A stretch of DNA of 22,535 nucleotides from a virus, in IMG/VR virus record IMGVR_UViG_3300027754_000471, positions 1 to 22,535 of that record. The stretch is one strand, 5' to 3'. Under the pieces are notes generated by a model. That model had not been told where the DNA came from. It searched no databases and worked only from the letters and a program-made list of their open reading frames with translations. The position numbers and the translations under genes are program-made. Below, piece after piece: positions 4,628 to 12,997 of this stretch; the stretch's first letter is position 1, and each line of letters begins with the position of its first letter.

Positions 4628-5038
4628 TTATTGTTTTATAAATACTAATTCTGTGCATCCTGTAGAACCCTCCAAGAAGCCAAACTCTTTCATGCTATTT
4701 ATCAATGATGGGTTCTTCATTGACGAGTAGATATATGTTTTGCCAGATAAGACTGACATTGCCTTTGCAACATCAATCATATAAGCTAACGCATTCTTTC
4801 TCAATACTTTATCTTTTACTTCAAAGTTACTAACGATAAATTCTAACCAGCAAATCTTTGAGTTTGTCATGTACAAAAAGCAGGCACAGATATCTACGCC
4901 ATCCTTTGAAACCATAACTCCTTCTAAATTAAAAGGTAAGAAATCCTTAGCAGGGGCATCCCATCTCCAATCTTTCCACCATTTCTTTAAAATGTTCTCG
5001 TAATCAGATTCTGAAATGACTCTTGTTTCAAACTTCAT
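4628..5038 (-). CDS. GNAT-like acetyltransferase-fold protein
   Basis: This 136-residue protein has the size and secondary-structure order of a compact GNAT domain. The N-terminal segment has WWKDWRWDAPAKDFLP. A beta segment (about 39-57, VMVSKDGVDICACFLYM) is followed by WLEFIVSN (64-71). A basic helix (79-93) sits where the acetyl-CoA pyrophosphate loop usually lies, and the C-terminal part has YIYSSMKNPSLINSMKEFGF, typical of the GNAT last helix and strand. The canonical Q/RxxGxG/A loop is not clear, so activity is uncertain. Similar small proteins occur, from memory, among tail and ejection genes of aquatic phages. The gene has its own TAnnTTTG box 7 nt before the ATG and opens the operon that leads into the ejection genes. 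Its substrate is unknown. Confidence 0.55.
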   Translation of the reverse strand: MKFETRVISESDYENILKKWWKDWRWDAPAKDFLPFNLEGVMVSKDGVDICACFLYMTNSKICWLEFIVSNFEVKDKVLRKNALAYMIDVAKAMSVLSGKTYIYSSMKNPSLINSMKEFGFLEGSTGCTELVFIKQ

Positions 5039-5058: not shown

Positions 5059-5853
5059 TTAAGGGTAACTTTTAAATACCTCTGAAGATACTTGGAAAAC
5101 TTCTACAGAATCAGTGTTTGTACTATCCAATTGCACATCCATATAGTAGCCTCTTAGTCCAAATGATTCTGATACTGAATTCTTTACGGACAAGATAAAG
5201 TCGCCCACAATCGGTGCGTTAAGCGTTCCTGTTGCGTCAGCAATAATTCTTATCACCGTCCTATTTGTTGCGGCATTATATGTTCTGGCAGATGCCATGC
5301 CTGCCTTTGCTTTTGCTGCTAGCGATCCATTAATTCTATAAATGATGTCACCGCTAAATCTGCCTGGGCTATTCAAGTTAACATTCTCTCCAACTTTTCC
5401 GGCAAATGTAATGTCTACAAAGCCAGCGCCAGAAGAAACAAGTAAAACTTCAGATATCCCTTGAGCCGATAAGTACACCGTATTCGACTCATTGTCCTCT
5501 CTACGGATATATGCGAACCACATTCCTTCCTTTCTTGTAAAGTTGTCATTGTTGATATTGCCGGATCCAAGGTTAGATAAAACTTGCGCTCCCCAACTAT
5601 CGCTTGCCTCAAGATGCAATGTCTTAAACATTTTCTGTTCGTCAGGCGCATCATTGAATATTGTTCTTACAGAAGAATTGTATTGTGTCCCATAAAAGTT
5701 ATTGTGCGTAGCATTGGTATTGTGCTTCCATATCTCGCCATCAATAAACGTATAGAAGTTGTTATTCATATTTGCCATCCAATCAGGAAAGTAAGAATGA
5801 AACGATGTCCATCCGCTCAAGACGGGAGAGTATGTTAATGTATAGTTCGCCAT
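5059..5853 (-). CDS. Probable tail structural protein of unknown role
   Basis: This 264-residue protein begins MANYTLTYSPVLSGWTSF and continues with an aromatic- and Asn-rich segment (about 20-75) containing NNFYTF, NNFYGTQYN and TIFNDAP. I recall the same pattern in conserved late-gene proteins of crAss-like and uncultured aquatic phages. The middle (about 130-235) is Gly/Ser/Thr/Val-rich and probably beta-structured. There is no catalytic motif or signal peptide. It starts with a 1-nt overlap (TAATG) with the glycosyltransferase-like gene and lies between the nozzle-adhesin gene and the ejection genes, which suggests a tail or baseplate component such as a fibre or hub. The virion role is inferred. 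Confidence 0.5.
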   Translation of the reverse strand: MANYTLTYSPVLSGWTSFHSYFPDWMANMNNNFYTFIDGEIWKHNTNATHNNFYGTQYNSSVRTIFNDAPDEQKMFKTLHLEASDSWGAQVLSNLGSGNINNDNFTRKEGMWFAYIRREDNESNTVYLSAQGISEVLLVSSGAGFVDITFAGKVGENVNLNSPGRFSGDIIYRINGSLAAKAKAGMASARTYNAATNRTVIRIIADATGTLNAPIVGDFILSVKNSVSESFGLRGYYMDVQLDSTNTDSVEVFQVSSEVFKSYP

Positions 5854-6797
5854 TACTGCAAATTTAATCTTTTTTTGGCGGAGTTCTCAATCCACTTCCA
5901 ATATAAATAAGAACACCTGTTTGGATCTAATCCTTTTATATCCAATCCGATTGGATCTACGTTGACATATTTGCCCTTCACAAACATTCCAGTGCTATCA
6001 TCTATAGCTCCGGCATTATGGTAGAAGCTAACTTTATCCCATCTTGGTGATCCACACGTTGCCCATGCGAAGTCAAACTCTGGCACAACCATGGTCTCTA
6101 TGCCTCGCTTCCATAAGCACCACAGCTCGGCCCACATACTGGCACACCATATCTGCACACCGTAAGGGTCACCGTCATTCTTCTTGTCTTTTAATTCTCC
6201 AAGGCCAAAGTATAGCGCATTGCTAATATCCTCAACCTCTTGCCAGTAATCAGCGTCAACGCCCTTCAATAGTTTCTGTGCGCCACCGCTCATCATTTCG
6301 TTGGCTTCAACAATATGGTGGTCAATGCCAGCTAACTCACACATCTTTAAGAATACGTCTTCTCCCTTACTCTTGATATACTTTGCGCCAATGTAACTTA
6401 TCGTATCGGATAAATAGCAGATATTATCGTATCTATGCGTATCAAAATTCATCGGCCTTGTAAATAAGAAGTCACAATCGTGATAAAAGATGTCACAATT
6501 CTTTGGAAATTTGTGACACACTTTCTTTAATATGTGCGGCTGAATAGATGGCGCATAACCTTTGTTGTCTCTCGTGTCCTCTGCGTAAATGAAATTAGCT
6601 TTTGGATACATTCTCTGGCATCTCAGCCAAGATGCCGGCAAATCATTGTCTATGGCTGCAACAACGTATATATCCTTCTCATCTATTCCCATAGATGTAA
6701 AGTTGTTTAAGTAAACCTCAACCTGCCAGGCATAATAGTCCGTGGCAGGTTGGGCTGATAGATAGATTAAAGAGGACAATCTACTACTGTTATCCAT
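5853..6797 (-). CDS. Glycosyltransferase-like protein (GT-A fold candidate)
   Basis: This 314-residue protein has an N-terminal alpha/beta part: strand IYLSAQP, then YVVAAID (44-50), then FIYAEDT (69-75). A DxD-type motif follows in IFYHDCDFLF (103-112; Asp107-Cys-Asp109). This order matches GT-A nucleotide-sugar transferases, where DxD binds the metal and nucleotide. Later features are a Met/Gly segment EMMSGGAQ, a Trp/Cys-rich stretch WCASMWAELWCLW and a C-terminal YLYWKWIEN. The ATG at 6797 lies inside the end of the nozzle-adhesin gene (31-nt overlap). An in-frame stop just upstream rules out a much longer form, and the next Met is residue 35. The gene ends in a TAATG overlap with the next one. 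The acceptor is unknown; a virion protein or host glycan is possible. Confidence 0.55.
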   Translation of the reverse strand: MDNSSRLSSLIYLSAQPATDYYAWQVEVYLNNFTSMGIDEKDIYVVAAIDNDLPASWLRCQRMYPKANFIYAEDTRDNKGYAPSIQPHILKKVCHKFPKNCDIFYHDCDFLFTRPMNFDTHRYDNICYLSDTISYIGAKYIKSKGEDVFLKMCELAGIDHHIVEANEMMSGGAQKLLKGVDADYWQEVEDISNALYFGLGELKDKKNDGDPYGVQIWCASMWAELWCLWKRGIETMVVPEFDFAWATCGSPRWDKVSFYHNAGAIDDSTGMFVKGKYVNVDPIGLDIKGLDPNRCSYLYWKWIENSAKKRLNLQ

Positions 6798-9700
6798 TGT
6801 GTACCGTCCCAGTTATATGAAACGAATGATCCAGCAAATGTTGTCTTGTACCATCCAGCAGGAGCAAGTATTGTTCCTCCGGCATTGGTATATAGAGATC
6901 CAGAAGATCCAAATACACCAGTGTAGTAATATGTATTAAATGCATTGGATGCACATGACGCACCAGACGTTAATCCATAAGCTAAGCTCTTGCTTAAAAC
7001 TGGAGGCGCTGTCGTTGTGGTAGTCGTTGTACTTGTCGTTGTACTTGTCGTTGTACTTGTTGTTGTACTTGTTGTTGTACTCGTGGTTGTGGTAGTTGTA
7101 GCGCAGTTATACTTTGCAAGAACTAATCCTGTAATAGATATCTGCAAGGCATAAGTATTAGCTCCTTCGTTCACATAGTACCACTTGTTCAAGCCATTGA
7201 ACGGCAATGTACCTATTGAGTTGGTATATATAAAGTCTCCAAGTGCAGGGTATGCGCTAGCTCCATTATGGTAGAACGTTGTTGAGTTTACACCCAAAGA
7301 ACAAGAACTATACTGAGTGCTATATCCCGTTGGATCCATAAGGTATCCGGTGAACACAGGCGCAGTAGTCGTTGTGGTTGTTGTCGTAGATGTAGTCGTT
7401 GTTGTACCAATACACGTTGCACAGTTTGCATAAAGAACTCTTGGATTAGGAATTAGATACCCATAAGGTTGTGCAGCTACCGTTCCAGTGATTGTCCAGC
7501 AGTTGCCATCAGATGACTTCAATACATTGCCTACTGAGATTGCTTGAGAGAAAGTATCTAACAATACATCGTTGTATGTTGTTCCACATAATGTTGCGCT
7601 GTAGTAAGTTCCTGCTGGCAAAGTAGTTGTGGTCGTTGTGGTTCCGCAATTAAATACGTCAACTACATTACCAAGGTTGTCAACTTTTATTGCCTGACCA
7701 TTATTAATCAAGTACCAGTTGTTGCCACCCACTAAAGGCGTTGCACCATTTTGATCTTCGTAAACAATGTCATCAACCATCGGGAATACTGTGTATCCGT
7801 TTGAGTACATAGTAATAAATGTAGGTACAGCAATTGCACAGCAAGCTGATGCACTAACTTGATTATGAACCTTATCCACTTGAATAGGAATATAATTTAC
7901 TGGTTGGCTATTTACGGTAATTATAAATGTGTTTGGTATGCTTGTTCCCACACAGTTAGTTGCCGTTACATTTAAATTGTATTGCCCAAATCCAGACGCT
8001 GTTCCAGAAATTAATCCTGTCGCGGTGTCAAGACTCAAACCTGCCGGCATGCTATTAGTTTGACAAGGACCTACTAATGAGAATGTTACATCTGATCCAG
8101 TGACAACTGATATTGTACCACTGACATAGCATTTGTAAAGAACCTGACCAAGATTAACAACAACATTTTCATACAATAATGTAATTGGGTTTTGTCCAGT
8201 AACAACGCCACCAACCGTTCCGCCATCAATGGCATAATTAGATGATGTGGTTGACACAGCAAAACTTGTAGGGTTATTTGTTGCAGCTACCTTAATGCTT
8301 ACATCATTACCTTGGATGAATTCTACATTGCCTTGAATAATAATTGGCACAGCAACCTCAGAGCATCCGCAATCGGTTACTGATAATACAACACCGAAGT
8401 TATCAATTCTTAATGCGTATCCAGATATGTAATAATATTTACTGTCTCCAGCAAATAATGTTGTTCCTCCAGCGTCAGAGTAGATAATATTTCCCTCAGA
8501 AGGTATTGTGTTTTGTCCATTATAATATACAGTTGTGCTTGTGCTTCCGGCACATGCAAGGGCTGTAGTTATATAGGGTGTTGCACCCATTGCGATTGAC
8601 CTCAATGTGGTTGCGTAAGTTTGGAATGACCATGTTGTACTAACAATAGGAGAGTAAACATATAAGAAATAACTTCCTGTTGTTTGTTTAACCTGTGTTA
8701 AGAATCCTAATCCGTTGTTTACCAATCCATTATAAGGAGAACTTAAATTTATATTATCAACACCTAATGCAACCAATGCGTTATAGTTTGACAAGCTGTT
8801 TAATCCAACGTATCCACTATCATTAATTAAGTTGTTGTTTGCGTCATATAAAACAAATCTAGAAGCACCAACTCCTGCGTTATACTTCAATTGTAAATTA
8901 CCTACGTTTGATCCATAGTTCAATTCAATGATCTCAGGATTCAATGTGCCAGAAGATGTAGACGATCCAACGCTTGGAATGTTTACTTTGTTTCTATAAT
9001 CCCAAGTTAAGTACAAATTAGTACCACTTGCTGCATAATTGAAGTTTGCATTGTAAAGACCTGCGCTATAAACTGGCGTAATCTCAGTAGACGCTGCAAT
9101 CAATGCATTTACATTTGCAGGGTCGTAGGTTGCGTTTGTATCTAATGAATATACTTTATTACCCAAACTTGGATTAAATATCTTTATATTTGATCCTTGT
9201 GCATTTGTAGGTGTGGTATAAGATGTAAGAGTAACAGTATCTCCAATTGCTGGAATGTCACCCTGCCCAACAACACCAATACTTTGAGAATATAATGATA
9301 ATCCAGTTGGTTGCATTACTACGTTTGAGTACAATGCTCCTGAAGATCCTGAGCTTGTCCAGTTCACGTTCTGTTGTGTTTGCGATCCACCTTGAGCTAT
9401 TTGACCACCATTAGAAACCACAACTGTCTTAATAACAGCTGGTCTATTAGATTGAGTCAATATAACATCTTGAAATGTTCCGCAGGCATTCACTCTAATC
9501 TTTATAGATCTAGATGTAGCAGCTCCAATATTTGACGTAAGCGTAACTTTAATAAGTTTATTACCTGTGCCAGCAACTTGAGAAAGTGTAGCCCATCCAG
9601 TTCCAAAACCATTGTCAATCAATGACACAGTCCAGTTCTGAGATGCAGTAATAATAAATGTGTCATATGTTCCGGCAGTTCCCTCAATAAAGAAAACTGT

Positions 9701-12700
9701 TTTGTTTACAGAGTATGTACACAAGTTCACAGTTTTTGTGTTGCTTGTTAATACATACACGGCATCATAAGGATCATATGCACCAATCTTTTGTGTATCT
9801 GGCCCACTTGAGAATAAATCTCTGAACCAGTCTCTCATGCCTTGAGAAGATATCTCAAACAATCCAGACTCATCAAGCTTCATCGCTGTGCCTCTTCTGG
9901 CATCAGTAAAGAAGATATCAGATCCCCACTTCGCAAAACTCTCAGGGTTTAAGCTAATACCATATTCTCCCATATAAGGTACAGGTGTACCAAGCACTTC
10001 AGGGATAGAAGATATTGCGCCTCCGCCAATAGCGTCGCTTAGTAAGTTCTTTTCGTAAAGAACTCTGAATATTTTATTCTCTTGAAATACAACTAAGTCA
10101 GTGTCTCTTGAGTGCAGCTTTTGAATGGAGCCGTATGCTCTGTCCAAAAACTTGAAGTTAGCTTTTGATAAGTTGAACTCATTCAATCTATTAGTAGATG
10201 TTTCAGACTGATATATTTGGGAGTACGTGATGCCAGACTTCGCATTGCTTTGCGCATAGTTAGAAATGTATGAGTTAACCCTTGGAGTATTCCCCATAGT
10301 AGGCTGATTGAAATCATCCCTAACTCTATAACTTTCAACTCCATTACCAAATGAGAATGCGTTAAAGTCATTAATCTGCAAAGTTGCAATACCGTTTAAC
10401 GGTTGAACTTTGTCTCCTGATGCAATTCCTGATGCGGTTGATCCATGAAGCTTTATTGATCCGCTAGTTGTGATTGGGTATGTGATTGGTATCTCATAAA
10501 ATATCTCAGAATTATTGTCCCTACCAATTGTTTCAAGCACTATAGGGGTTTGACCAAATGGACTATATGTAATTTTAAAAGTAATTTTATTTTCTGATTT
10601 TTTATCAAATTGATCCTCATAAACATTAGGTATTGCTGGATTATCTTTTTGATTATTGACATCGTAACCTTTTACAATCATATTTACGGAATTATTAATA
10701 ATTCTAAAAAACACATTTTTAGGGCCATTATTGGTTCCGTCTTCAGAATATTGTCTAAATTTAGTATAAATCTGATCTTCGTAAAACCATTCTTCAATGT
10801 TTACATAATCAGAAGAAGAAATAAATGCTTGTTCAGGCTGATCTGCCGATCCTTCGCTTTCAGATATGTCTATTTTAATAAATTGACCAGAAGTTATATT
10901 GTTTAATGGTAAGGCCGCAAACCCTCCATCTCTTTGATAAGGACTACTCCACCATGTCGGGCCATTAAATACATTAAGACCCTTATTGCTTCTACAGTTT
11001 ATTCTCCAAGAATCTCCAACCGTATAACCAGAATTTGATCCAAATATAATAAAACCAATAACCTTTCCTGAAGCGTCTTTTAAATAGTTACCCTTCTTTA
11101 ATCCTGAACTATCTTTATTTACGTCAATATTTGATTCAATTGGCGTAGATAAATTAGGAAACAAATAATAACTAAATGTACTTACTTTTGTAGTTTTATT
11201 GGTTCCTGTTATTTTTAAAAAATATCTAGCGTCCTTAGACCCTCTATAATCAGGTATAACCGTAAGTTTATTATTGCCTGTTCCATAAAATATTGGTGTT
11301 TCAATTGCAGAGTAAGCATTGTATTTGCTATAATTTATACTTCCATTATATGCTTGCAAGTATGTATCTCTATTTGTAGCCTTACCAACATCACTTATAG
11401 AAGCTTCAGAGTTAGATATCTTAGTAAATAAAGATCCCTCAGATTTAATTTTAATATAAAACCCTTCAGGTTGAGTTGTTGGAGGGTTATTCAAGAAGTT
11501 AATCGCCTTCATGTCCGCCTCAATAATTTTATATCTCTCGGCAGAACCTGTTGGTCCAGACTCTGTAGACTTAATCGTTAAGTAAGCATCTTTCTGAACC
11601 TTATCAATGTCAGCCTTGGGTATTAAGAACCAAGTATACAAACCATCTTGAAAATAATCAACTGGAAATACATTGTAATACTCTGATTTGTTTTGTTTTA
11701 TAAAGAACCTATACTTTGTTGCAAAACAAGGAGCATAGTTCTTAACAGAAACTTTTAATAAGTTTTGCGCAGTAGATGCACTCGCTGGCACATGAACTGT
11801 ATTCCCATCAGAGGTAAGAACAGTTGTCATTCTACCATAGTCATCTAAATACACAATCCCTAACTCATAGTCCCTGTCGCTTTTAAATGTTTTTCTTGGA
11901 ACACCCTTAGTTACTACAGGTATAGATTCTAGCTTAGCTTCAAGGCTAATATTAATAGGCACTTGATTGCAGTCAGCGATATCATAGAACTGAGTGTAGT
12001 TACCATAAGATAATCTGTTGCCAATATACTCTTGCGCTTTTGCTTTCAATGGCACGTTGTCAAACAACCTTGTCAATTGATCTTCTGGCAAAGCTGCGTA
12101 AGCTTTGTTGTTTTGAAATTTAAACTTATTTGATAAAGCTGTCGCCTTGGTTATGTTCTCAATAATGTTTGCCGTCAATGAATAGCTGTCCTTAAATATT
12201 AACTGAACCTCTTTTACATTGCTGTCTCCAAAGTCAAAAGTAATATCAACAGTATTGTTTACATTGACCATGGACTTGTTACTTCCTGTCCCATAGTCAT
12301 ATGAGAATACCTTAGGGAAGAATGCAACGTCAGAGAAAGGCGATAACGCACTATACTCATTGTCAAGGTACTTGTATCTATAAGCAAATCGTATAAATCT
12401 CTCACTGATATTATTCACGTCAGATCCATCATTGCTCATTACAATTGTAGGCGCATTTAATGGAGGAGCTAATATCACAGAGATGTCTTTGTCTGTAAAC
12501 CCATCTAAGGCATATGTTCTTGTTACATTTATTTTTCTTGGTGGGTTCAATCCATCTGTCCAATACAATAAATTATCAACCAAGTTAACGCCAGTAATTA
12601 AATTACTAGTGCTGAACTTTAAGTACTCAACCGGAGCTCTACCAACGCTTTCTATTAACAATATATATGTCTCTCCTGTTCCGTTTGCATTCTCATGGTA

Positions 12701-12997
12701 TTTCACAACCATATTAAATATGCCCTTCACAAAATAGTATATATTATTGTTTGCCAGATCAACATACGAACCAATGGTTGTATATGTGCCCGGCAACGTG
12801 ATACCCATAGCTAACGCTGCGGCTCTTAATCCAGACACTTTGGTGTTACCCATTACATTCTGCACGGAACCAACATTGGTTGAGTCAGATGTACCTACAC
12901 GGATGTTTCTGGCATCTCTATATTGACCATTAGGGATAAGCCTCTCATCGAGGTCCTTGTTCATTATGCCAGCGGCAAAGTTTCTTTTTAATTCCAT
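6767..12997 (-). CDS. Giant tail nozzle-adhesin fusion with BACON, Ig-like and poly-Thr-linked repeat modules
   Basis: This 2076-residue protein has a nozzle/tail-tube part in front (about 1-1085). It opens with KDLDERLIPNGQYRDARNI and ends its conserved core with VVFQENKIFRV, GEYGIS, FFTDARRGTAMK and GMRDWFRDLF, motifs I associate with T7 gp12/P22 gp10-like nozzle proteins of crAss-like and aquatic phages. A BACON domain follows (about 1093-1183; ITASQNWTVS, GWATLSQ, VILTQS). Next come beta-rich adhesin-like sequence (1183-1475), a repeat module (about 1478-1545), an He_PIG-type Ig domain (about 1630-1702; MPAGLSLDTATGLISGTASG) and further repeat modules separated by poly-Thr/Ser linkers. 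T7 gp12 is about 800 residues, so the C-terminal half is an added host-binding extension. It starts 2 nt after the 297-residue gene and overlaps the glycosyltransferase-like gene. It is likely expressed from the promoter before the 229-residue gene. Confidence 0.75.
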   Translation of the reverse strand: MELKRNFAAGIMNKDLDERLIPNGQYRDARNIRVGTSDSTNVGSVQNVMGNTKVSGLRAAALAMGITLPGTYTTIGSYVDLANNNIYYFVKGIFNMVVKYHENANGTGETYILLIESVGRAPVEYLKFSTSNLITGVNLVDNLLYWTDGLNPPRKINVTRTYALDGFTDKDISVILAPPLNAPTIVMSNDGSDVNNISERFIRFAYRYKYLDNEYSALSPFSDVAFFPKVFSYDYGTGSNKSMVNVNNTVDITFDFGDSNVKEVQLIFKDSYSLTANIIENITKATALSNKFKFQNNKAYAALPEDQLTRLFDNVPLKAKAQEYIGNRLSYGNYTQFYDIADCNQVPINISLEAKLESIPVVTKGVPRKTFKSDRDYELGIVYLDDYGRMTTVLTSDGNTVHVPASASTAQNLLKVSVKNYAPCFATKYRFFIKQNKSEYYNVFPVDYFQDGLYTWFLIPKADIDKVQKDAYLTIKSTESGPTGSAERYKIIEADMKAINFLNNPPTTQPEGFYIKIKSEGSLFTKISNSEASISDVGKATNRDTYLQAYNGSINYSKYNAYSAIETPIFYGTGNNKLTVIPDYRGSKDARYFLKITGTNKTTKVSTFSYYLFPNLSTPIESNIDVNKDSSGLKKGNYLKDASGKVIGFIIFGSNSGYTVGDSWRINCRSNKGLNVFNGPTWWSSPYQRDGGFAALPLNNITSGQFIKIDISESEGSADQPEQAFISSSDYVNIEEWFYEDQIYTKFRQYSEDGTNNGPKNVFFRIINNSVNMIVKGYDVNNQKDNPAIPNVYEDQFDKKSENKITFKITYSPFGQTPIVLETIGRDNNSEIFYEIPITYPITTSGSIKLHGSTASGIASGDKVQPLNGIATLQINDFNAFSFGNGVESYRVRDDFNQPTMGNTPRVNSYISNYAQSNAKSGITYSQIYQSETSTNRLNEFNLSKANFKFLDRAYGSIQKLHSRDTDLVVFQENKIFRVLYEKNLLSDAIGGGAISSIPEVLGTPVPYMGEYGISLNPESFAKWGSDIFFTDARRGTAMKLDESGLFEISSQGMRDWFRDLFSSGPDTQKIGAYDPYDAVYVLTSNTKTVNLCTYSVNKTVFFIEGTAGTYDTFIITASQNWTVSLIDNGFGTGWATLSQVAGTGNKLIKVTLTSNIGAATSRSIKIRVNACGTFQDVILTQSNRPAVIKTVVVSNGGQIAQGGSQTQQNVNWTSSGSSGALYSNVVMQPTGLSLYSQSIGVVGQGDIPAIGDTVTLTSYTTPTNAQGSNIKIFNPSLGNKVYSLDTNATYDPANVNALIAASTEITPVYSAGLYNANFNYAASGTNLYLTWDYRNKVNIPSVGSSTSSGTLNPEIIELNYGSNVGNLQLKYNAGVGASRFVLYDANNNLINDSGYVGLNSLSNYNALVALGVDNINLSSPYNGLVNNGLGFLTQVKQTTGSYFLYVYSPIVSTTWSFQTYATTLRSIAMGATPYITTALACAGSTSTTVYYNGQNTIPSEGNIIYSDAGGTTLFAGDSKYYYISGYALRIDNFGVVLSVTDCGCSEVAVPIIIQGNVEFIQGNDVSIKVAATNNPTSFAVSTTSSNYAIDGGTVGGVVTGQNPITLLYENVVVNLGQVLYKCYVSGTISVVTGSDVTFSLVGPCQTNSMPAGLSLDTATGLISGTASGFGQYNLNVTATNCVGTSIPNTFIITVNSQPVNYIPIQVDKVHNQVSASACCAIAVPTFITMYSNGYTVFPMVDDIVYEDQNGATPLVGGNNWYLINNGQAIKVDNLGNVVDVFNCGTTTTTTTLPAGTYYSATLCGTTYNDVLLDTFSQAISVGNVLKSSDGNCWTITGTVAAQPYGYLIPNPRVLYANCATCIGTTTTTSTTTTTTTTAPVFTGYLMDPTGYSTQYSSCSLGVNSTTFYHNGASAYPALGDFIYTNSIGTLPFNGLNKWYYVNEGANTYALQISITGLVLAKYNCATTTTTTSTTTSTTTSTTTSTTTSTTTTTTTAPPVLSKSLAYGLTSGASCASNAFNTYYYTGVFGSSGSLYTNAGGTILAPAGWYKTTFAGSFVSYNWDGTQWITVVDCPL
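7010..7099 (-). repeat. Poly-Thr/Ser linker with five 12-bp tandem units
   Basis: Thirty consecutive Thr/Ser codons follow NCA and precede APP. The centre (7031-7090) is five tandem 12-bp units, each coding Ser-Thr-Thr-Thr, with plus-strand unit acttgtcgttgt or acttgttgttgt and one more diverged copy. The unit length is a multiple of 3, so copy-number change keeps the frame. Most unit differences are synonymous. Confidence 0.9.
7364..7405 (-). repeat. Second poly-Thr linker (14 codons, one Ser)
   Basis: Fourteen codons encode TTTTTSTTTTTTTT between CIG and APV in the nozzle-adhesin protein. The linker joins the variant repeat module to the next Cys-bounded module, and sequence composition is like the two other linkers. 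Confidence 0.85.
7622..7642 (-). repeat. Third, short poly-Thr linker (7 codons)
   Basis: Seven Thr codons directly follow NCG at the end of a Cys-bounded module and precede LPAG. It is the shortest of three Thr linkers in the C-terminal part of the nozzle-adhesin gene. Confidence 0.8.
7897..8105 (-). other. He_PIG-type putative Ig domain within the nozzle-adhesin gene
   Basis: Residues about 1630-1702 contain MPAGLSLDTATGLISGTASG, then YNLNVTATNCVG and a final strand TFIITV. This is the usual LPxGLxLxxxTGxIxGTP...VxATN pattern of the putative Ig family found in bacterial surface adhesins. The terminal Pro of ISGTP is replaced by Ala. Confidence 0.75.
9440..9722 (-). other. BACON domain within the nozzle-adhesin gene
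   Basis: Residues about 1093-1183 show the BACON pattern: ITASQNWTVS (the ASxxWTVS core), GWATLSQVAGTGN, a long beta strand with VTLTSN, then RSIKIRVNACGTFQDVILTQS with the closing Gln-Ser. BACON domains are Bacteroidota-associated modules linked to carbohydrate or mucin binding, and are known in crAss-like phages. A binding role here is an inference. Confidence 0.8.

Follow-up and report, generated by a model that had tools for sequence, protein, structure and literature searches.

A muzzle-like tail protein fused to a modular arm, and a neighbouring glycosyltransferase gene linked to threonine-rich virion proteins

We analyzed a 22,535-nucleotide stretch of viral DNA (IMG/VR record IMGVR_UViG_3300027754_000471, positions 1 to 22,535; here called the window) in which one open reading frame (ORF) on the minus strand, at 6767-12997, runs from an ATG for 2076 codons without interruption. 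The first 1085 residues of its product are homologous to the muzzle of crassviruses, and the rest is an arm of BACON, Ig-like and cassette modules with Thr/Ser-rich linkers. Immediately downstream lie a gene for a predicted glycosyltransferase (GT) and a gene for MUZ_C, a domain that ends the muzzle chain itself in other phages. We propose that these genes specify a six-fold muzzle that bears adhesin arms, with Thr linkers that would be glycosylated by the dedicated phage enzyme, and we put the probability of this reading at about 0.6.

Is such a long frame a real gene? The same fused frame was found in 13 contigs, the window and 12 relatives from viral metagenomes, at 41 to 87% identity in the first half. 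It continues across the boundary at residue 1085 at first-half identities of 82 to 87% (L008-L013 and L016), 63 to 64% (L014, L015 and L037) and 41 to 42% (L038-L040), and one relative with the fused form is a terminally repeated genome of 63.6 kb with a 123-bp terminal repeat. Ratios of nonsynonymous to synonymous substitution rates (dN/dS; Nei-Gojobori method, pairwise against two close relatives) were between 0.02 and 0.36 in all segments of the ORF. The maximum fell in the terminal cassette (0.31 to 0.36), the fastest-changing segment among close relatives; values elsewhere were 0.02 to 0.19, with the middle of the muzzle body, or crass-fold region, second highest (0.16 to 0.19), the stretch around the junction of body and arm at 0.13 to 0.14, and the BACON segment at 0.04 to 0.06. 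Because the frame is continuous in the relatives and dN/dS is well below 1 throughout, the 2076-residue protein is a real coding sequence, kept as one chain at the gene level. An earlier note, made from the sequence alone, had described a nozzle-type half and a modular half of about 1000 residues in one frame, with the boundary at 1085. Both points were borne out, the second by the fact that homology to the tail proteins of most cultured phages ends at about residue 1083.

Residues 1-1085 (9743-12997, minus strand) form the muzzle body. They match the virion structural protein family PHROG 14478 (E = 4e-189) and, over residues 1-1083, the structural proteins of flavobacterial podoviruses, with 35 to 36% identity to gp097 of Cellulophaga phage phi38:1 (tblastn, E = 5e-171). 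When a crassvirus gp44 profile (seven crassvirus muzzle proteins) was compared with the body by hhalign, residues 7-394, in the N-terminal propeller/ring-joining region, aligned with residues 8-392 at 98.3% probability, and residues 914-1063 formed a second collinear block with residues 1023-1170 (74%). The body has no match to Pfam crAss_MUZ (PF25731) at E values up to 1, and PDB sequence searches with the 2076-residue chain and with the MUZ_C protein returned nothing significant. On the basis of the profile-profile comparison and the phi38:1 link, the body is a divergent homologue of the crassvirus-type muzzle rather than a member of the Pfam family. The muzzle of crAss001 is a hexamer that is similar to the T7 nozzle in its ring-joining domain and its propeller (PMC10172136); thus "nozzle" is right in kind, whereas "muzzle" is the precise family. 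A profile search of the first half, named by the earlier note as a check, therefore did find nozzle-type homology, but the generic nozzle of about 800 residues gave way to a crassvirus-type muzzle, normally about 1300 to 1400 residues long with its C-terminal domain. Judged by the muzzle-based relationships that we examined, the virus seems to be a flavobacterial-type podovirus related to crassviruses. In the Maribacter phage Panino (L002:8001-11914), the muzzle lies in two ORFs of 946 and 320 residues with body residues ~965-1005 missing between them, either by a sequencing error or by a true split.

The 264-residue protein encoded at 5059-5853 (minus strand) matches Pfam crAss_MUZ_C (PF25729, E = 1.7e-17), is homologous to residues 1078-1307 of phi38:1 gp097 and aligns with the C terminus of gp44 at 98.4% probability (hhalign). 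Its gene is located two genes downstream of the muzzle gene, its start sharing 1 nt with the stop codon of the GT gene, and is separate in the relatives too; Cellulophaga phage phi13:2 likewise has MUZ_C as a separate gene. The crAss001 gp44 chain ends in this domain (1244-1333), and in phi38:1, elemo and Gundel_1 the MUZ_C part follows the body within the muzzle chain after only 5 to 21 residues, with no arm and no GT gene; the muzzle chain of the window lacks this hallmark of a crassvirus-type muzzle. Since MUZ_C shares a chain with the body in all four but is a separate gene here, the muzzle has been opened between body and MUZ_C. The separate protein is likely to join the muzzle in trans, as MUZ_C lies near the end of the chain that forms the propeller and the ring-joining domain. 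Relative to gp44 (PDB 7qok; PMC10172136), the first 400 residues and the MUZ_C domain are homologous, the 914-1063 block is collinear, and the operon position after ring-type virion proteins is alike. However, gp44 is a single 1371-residue chain that ends in MUZ_C and has no BACON domain, cassettes or Thr linkers, whereas in the window the body is followed by an arm of ~990 residues, MUZ_C has its own gene, and the middle crass-fold region shows no detectable local similarity.

Other lineages carry other genes between body and MUZ_C (L007:12650-13201, L017:13493-14524 and L038:6543-8015); these differ from one another (a putative glycosidase, a 343-residue unknown and a 374-residue unknown), which suggests that the site is an insertion hotspot. 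A 136-residue protein of PHROG 17252 (4628-5038), annotated in L007 as an N-acetyltransferase subunit, is found after MUZ_C in most of the relatives, even in some with neither arm nor GT.

Module borders in the arm (residues 1089-2076, minus strand) were taken from profiles built on 36 relatives; BLAST of the arm against itself did not reveal the cassettes, and profiles were required. The arm contains a single BACON domain, two domains rich in beta structure, an Ig domain of the He_PIG family, four cassettes related to one another, a fifth cassette that is of a second type, and three linkers of Thr/Ser; the BACON, Ig-like and cassette modules seen by the earlier note are thus present. The BACON domain (residues 1089-1189; 9431-9733) was recognized through its family, in which 11 of 29 aligned members match PF13004 (best 6e-6) and the hallmark residues W, N, R and Q are conserved; the copy in the window does not itself match Pfam significantly. 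It is followed by adhesin domain AD1 (1192-1340; 8978-9424), which also occurs within the muzzle chains of phi13:2 (L005), L007 and L031, and by AD2 (1341-1470; 8588-8977), whose profile is conserved in 36 aligned rows. Next come cassette copy 1 (1471-1545; 8363-8587) and the Ig region (1546-1699; 7901-8362), with He_PIG at 1625-1696 (PF05345, E = 1.6e-9, 38.5 bits against a gathering cutoff of 24). Beyond it, cassettes alternate with linkers read from the translation: cassette copy 2 (1710-1787; 7637-7870), Thr run 1, TTTTTTT (1786-1792; 7622-7642), the second-type cassette (1794-1865; 7403-7618), Thr/Ser run 2 (1865-1878; 7364-7405), cassette copy 3 (1879-1966; 7100-7363), Thr/Ser run 3 (1967-1996; 7010-7099) and the terminal cassette, copy 4 (2000-2076; 6770-7000). 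Run 3 consists mostly of TTTS units, and its DNA is a tandem repeat at 7010-7090 with a period of 12 bp and 6.8 copies (Tandem Repeats Finder). By hhalign, copies 1 to 3 match one another at 99% probability and are clearly homologous; copy 4 matches them at 78 to 88% and is probably homologous, and the second-type cassette is unrelated to copies 1 to 3. The AlphaFold model of the arm shows beta domains in a row, joined by linkers of low confidence (predicted local distance difference test [pLDDT], 77; predicted template modeling score [pTM], 0.46). A Bacteroidota phage, prototypical crAssphage, likewise has BACON domains in a protein from the tail region (gp64), but there eight stand in tandem in an ORF with tail genes on either side (PMC6949934), whereas the window has a single one at the end of the body, within the muzzle chain.

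The gene between the arm and MUZ_C (5853-6797, minus strand; 314 residues, PHROG 4417) overlaps the 3' end of the adhesin gene by 31 nt at its start. Its AlphaFold2 model (pLDDT, 92.7) has a GT-A fold, with UGGT/GT24, WbbM, XXYLT1 and GT8 as the top Foldseek matches (E = 2e-7 to 5e-6) and a probability of 1.00 against GT8/GT24 enzymes, and a D107xD109 motif is invariant in 45 GT sequences. The protein has no significant Pfam match. Fold and motif point to a GT-A-fold glycosyltransferase near GT24/GT8. A CR2 signal of the Stealth phosphoglycosyltransferases was faint (6 of 45 members, best 0.0045), and Stealth-type matches were weak (CpsY, 8j2n, E = 0.35; GNPTAB at Foldseek rank 33); in view of this faint signal, a Stealth-type transfer chemistry is possible.

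Our data revealed a close linkage between this GT and Thr runs. With the GT as the sole bait, 53 viral loci were retrieved; a Thr-run protein was nearby in all 53 and was the immediately upstream gene in 50, against a background of Thr runs in 9 of 465 other same-strand genes (1.9%). The upstream genes fall into six clusters. One family accounts for 43 of the upstream proteins, and four further unrelated groups, on contigs of up to 246 kb, also have Thr runs. In eight of nine cultured phages examined, the gene next to the GT homologue encodes either a virion protein (major tail, capsid or Ig) or a protein without a name that has a stretch rich in Thr; Enterococcus phage 9183 is the exception. 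In Enterococcus phage phiFL1A the pair consists of gp51 and the major tail protein, which ends in TTTTTSTTTTTTSSTTTTTTTQASSK, and in Lactococcus phage 1706 it consists of orf13 and orf14. Phages of Bacteroidota and of Gram-positive hosts that are unrelated to one another share the pairing, among them Enterococcus, Lactobacillus, Lactococcus and Staphylococcus phages. Muzzle relatives without the GT show no Thr runs (phi38:1, phi13:2, Gundel_1, elemo, Panino, L007 and L031). PHROG 4417 genes stand right after Thr-run virion proteins at 5853-6797 and in L073-L077, L079, L083 and L086-L094.

In a sister clade of 28 viral metagenome contigs (e.g., L050, L062 and L082), the order of body, arm, GT and MUZ_C is the same and BACON again ends the body, but a stop codon separates muzzle from arm. 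There the muzzle ends after BACON, and the arm is a gene of its own immediately downstream (850 to 960 residues, homologous to ~1205-2076, its start lying at about AD1), in most cases with an additional second-type cassette and with four Thr runs. In the junctions inspected, this gene begins near the muzzle stop and in some overlaps it. In a muzzle tree built by a quick method and having some long branches, the 28 split contigs form one clade (support 100) and the 13 fused rows lie in two clades outside it. Given this placement and the presence of AD1 in the outgroup muzzle chains, the fused form looks older, and the simplest reading is that it is ancestral and was split in the 28-contig clade; two separate fusions are a possible alternative. 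A recent fusion in this phage was ruled out, as fused forms occur in two lineages and AD1 lies within the muzzle chain of deeper outgroups. The split sister form, MUZ_C as its own gene and the linkage of the GT to Thr-rich virion proteins go beyond what the earlier note had described.

How might these proteins work together? Six muzzle subunits, each completed by one MUZ_C protein, would form a gated plug at the tail tip. Each subunit would bear an arm of ~990 residues, with a BACON spacer, Ig-like beta domains and then cassettes on Thr/Ser-rich linkers, projecting where the ancestral chain continued into MUZ_C. The GT would most likely act in the cytoplasm during late expression, O-glycosylating the Thr/Ser linkers of the arm before assembly, and the glycosylated linkers would be stiff, protease-resistant bristles that keep the cassettes off the tail. 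The cassettes, chiefly the terminal one, would likely contact host surface glycans, and arm contact may help to trigger opening of the gated tip. The earlier note had pictured a polysaccharide-binding skirt around the tail tip: six arms would be reasonable in view of the hexamerization known for crAss001 (PMC10172136). The homology of body and MUZ_C, the modules, the order and conservation of the genes, and the GT fold with its link to Thr-run proteins were observed; the hexamer, the place of the arm, the glycosylation and the receptor binding we infer. The note's suggestion that the nozzle carries receptor binding in place of separate fibre genes was not supported. The 63.6-kb relative genome encodes other candidate fibre proteins of 309 and 250 residues, matching C-terminal parts of minor-tail/virion families in a region that the window does not cover, and on this basis separate fibre-type proteins may well exist.

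Several observations weigh against this reading. Residues 400-900 of the body, the crass-fold region that is inserted in IG2 in gp44, gave no local alignment to gp44 by hhalign, and a Foldseek search with the low-pTM arm model returned generic Ig-string matches only, so that receptor identification by this route was dropped. The GT is present in only 12 of 95 Thr-run stretches, though many of these end early; distant homologues on bacterial chromosomes (30 to 41% identity), which come from Sphingobacterium, Pedobacter, Chitinophaga and Mucilaginibacter (L221-L257), have no nearby Thr run in 31 of 37 cases; and one or two genes stand between arm and GT in the lineage L038-L040. Two sweeping rules were accordingly rejected: that Thr-run phage proteins always come with a GT (other GT families are also few immediately downstream) and that homologues of this GT always have a Thr run beside them, which fails for bacterial chromosomes (6 of 37). 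The six may be prophages. Since the chromosomal homologues are mostly unlinked to Thr runs, the GT superfamily has no single fixed substrate, and the link seems to be a property of the phage branch. The many Thr-run proteins seen without this GT and the unlinked chromosomal homologues would suit plain, flexible Thr/Ser spacers with a GT that acts elsewhere, for example, in modifying the host surface to block superinfection. We consider this somewhat unlikely, because a Thr-run gene stands directly before the GT gene in 50 of 53 loci, because the pairing is repeated in unrelated phages and both partners are missing from the GT-free muzzle relatives, and because a superinfection gene needs no place in a late virion operon, overlapping a tail gene. 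It is also unlikely, and a little more so, that the C-terminal half is structural, as a fibre clamp or tip stabilizer, rather than receptor-binding. Carbohydrate binding by BACON domains is unproven, and they may serve as linkers (PMC6949934); the presence of other candidate fibre genes in the relative genome also fits such a role. However, a variable, surface-facing part would better explain modular cassettes on Thr linkers, the dN/dS peak in the terminal cassette and an arm that some muzzle lineages have and others lack.

The 28 relatives in which the arm is a separate gene, and can thus work as its own polypeptide, bear on two further alternatives. One is that the arm is made in one chain and cleaved off on maturation, leaving a virion like that of the sister clade. 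This seems quite improbable, given the constraint on the boundary stretch and the fused form in the deep outgroups; neither a protease site nor a gene for a protease was identified, though no systematic search was made. The other, that the giant ORF arose by chimeric or faulty assembly or by read-through of two genes, has a negligible chance and was ruled out: the frame is shared with 12 other contigs down to ~41% identity, and the junction is under purifying selection.

If the proposed glycosylated-arm muzzle is correct, a crassvirus-like gated tail plug, thought to contact the cell, can open at one fixed point to make room for a long modular arm, and the domain cut off is then supplied by a gene of its own. 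An uncharacterized phage gene family would gain a specific, testable substrate, the Thr-rich linkers of a neighbouring virion protein. A broader and tentative proposal, to which we give slightly less than even odds, is that PHROG 4417 comprises widespread phage enzymes dedicated to glycosylating such linkers in unrelated Bacteroidota and Gram-positive phages, here serving the receptor-binding arms of a muzzle ring rebuilt in trans from two polypeptides. Virion glycosylation would then extend well beyond mycobacteriophage capsids. Phage-encoded glycosyltransferases and covalent glycans have been reported for virions of Che8 and Rita, as summarized in PMC11256854 (citing Freeman et al. 2023). 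As described there, the likeness lies in phage-encoded glycosyltransferases linked to virion proteins, but the targets are capsid proteins of actinobacterial phages. We found no paper on phage poly-Thr glycosylation in the open-access literature searched, and novelty is unproven.

Other genes were seen in the window and its relatives. Relative genome G002, which is terminally repeated, encodes a GroEL-like chaperonin (L262:17370-19165; PF00118, E = 5e-55) together with GroES and a second GroES-like protein of 183 residues (L262:10711-11259). At 1-2290 of the window, on the minus strand, a very large gene is cut by the window edge; its counterpart in a relative encodes 2786 residues (L264:4896-13253), and the product is probably an internal or ejected virion protein.

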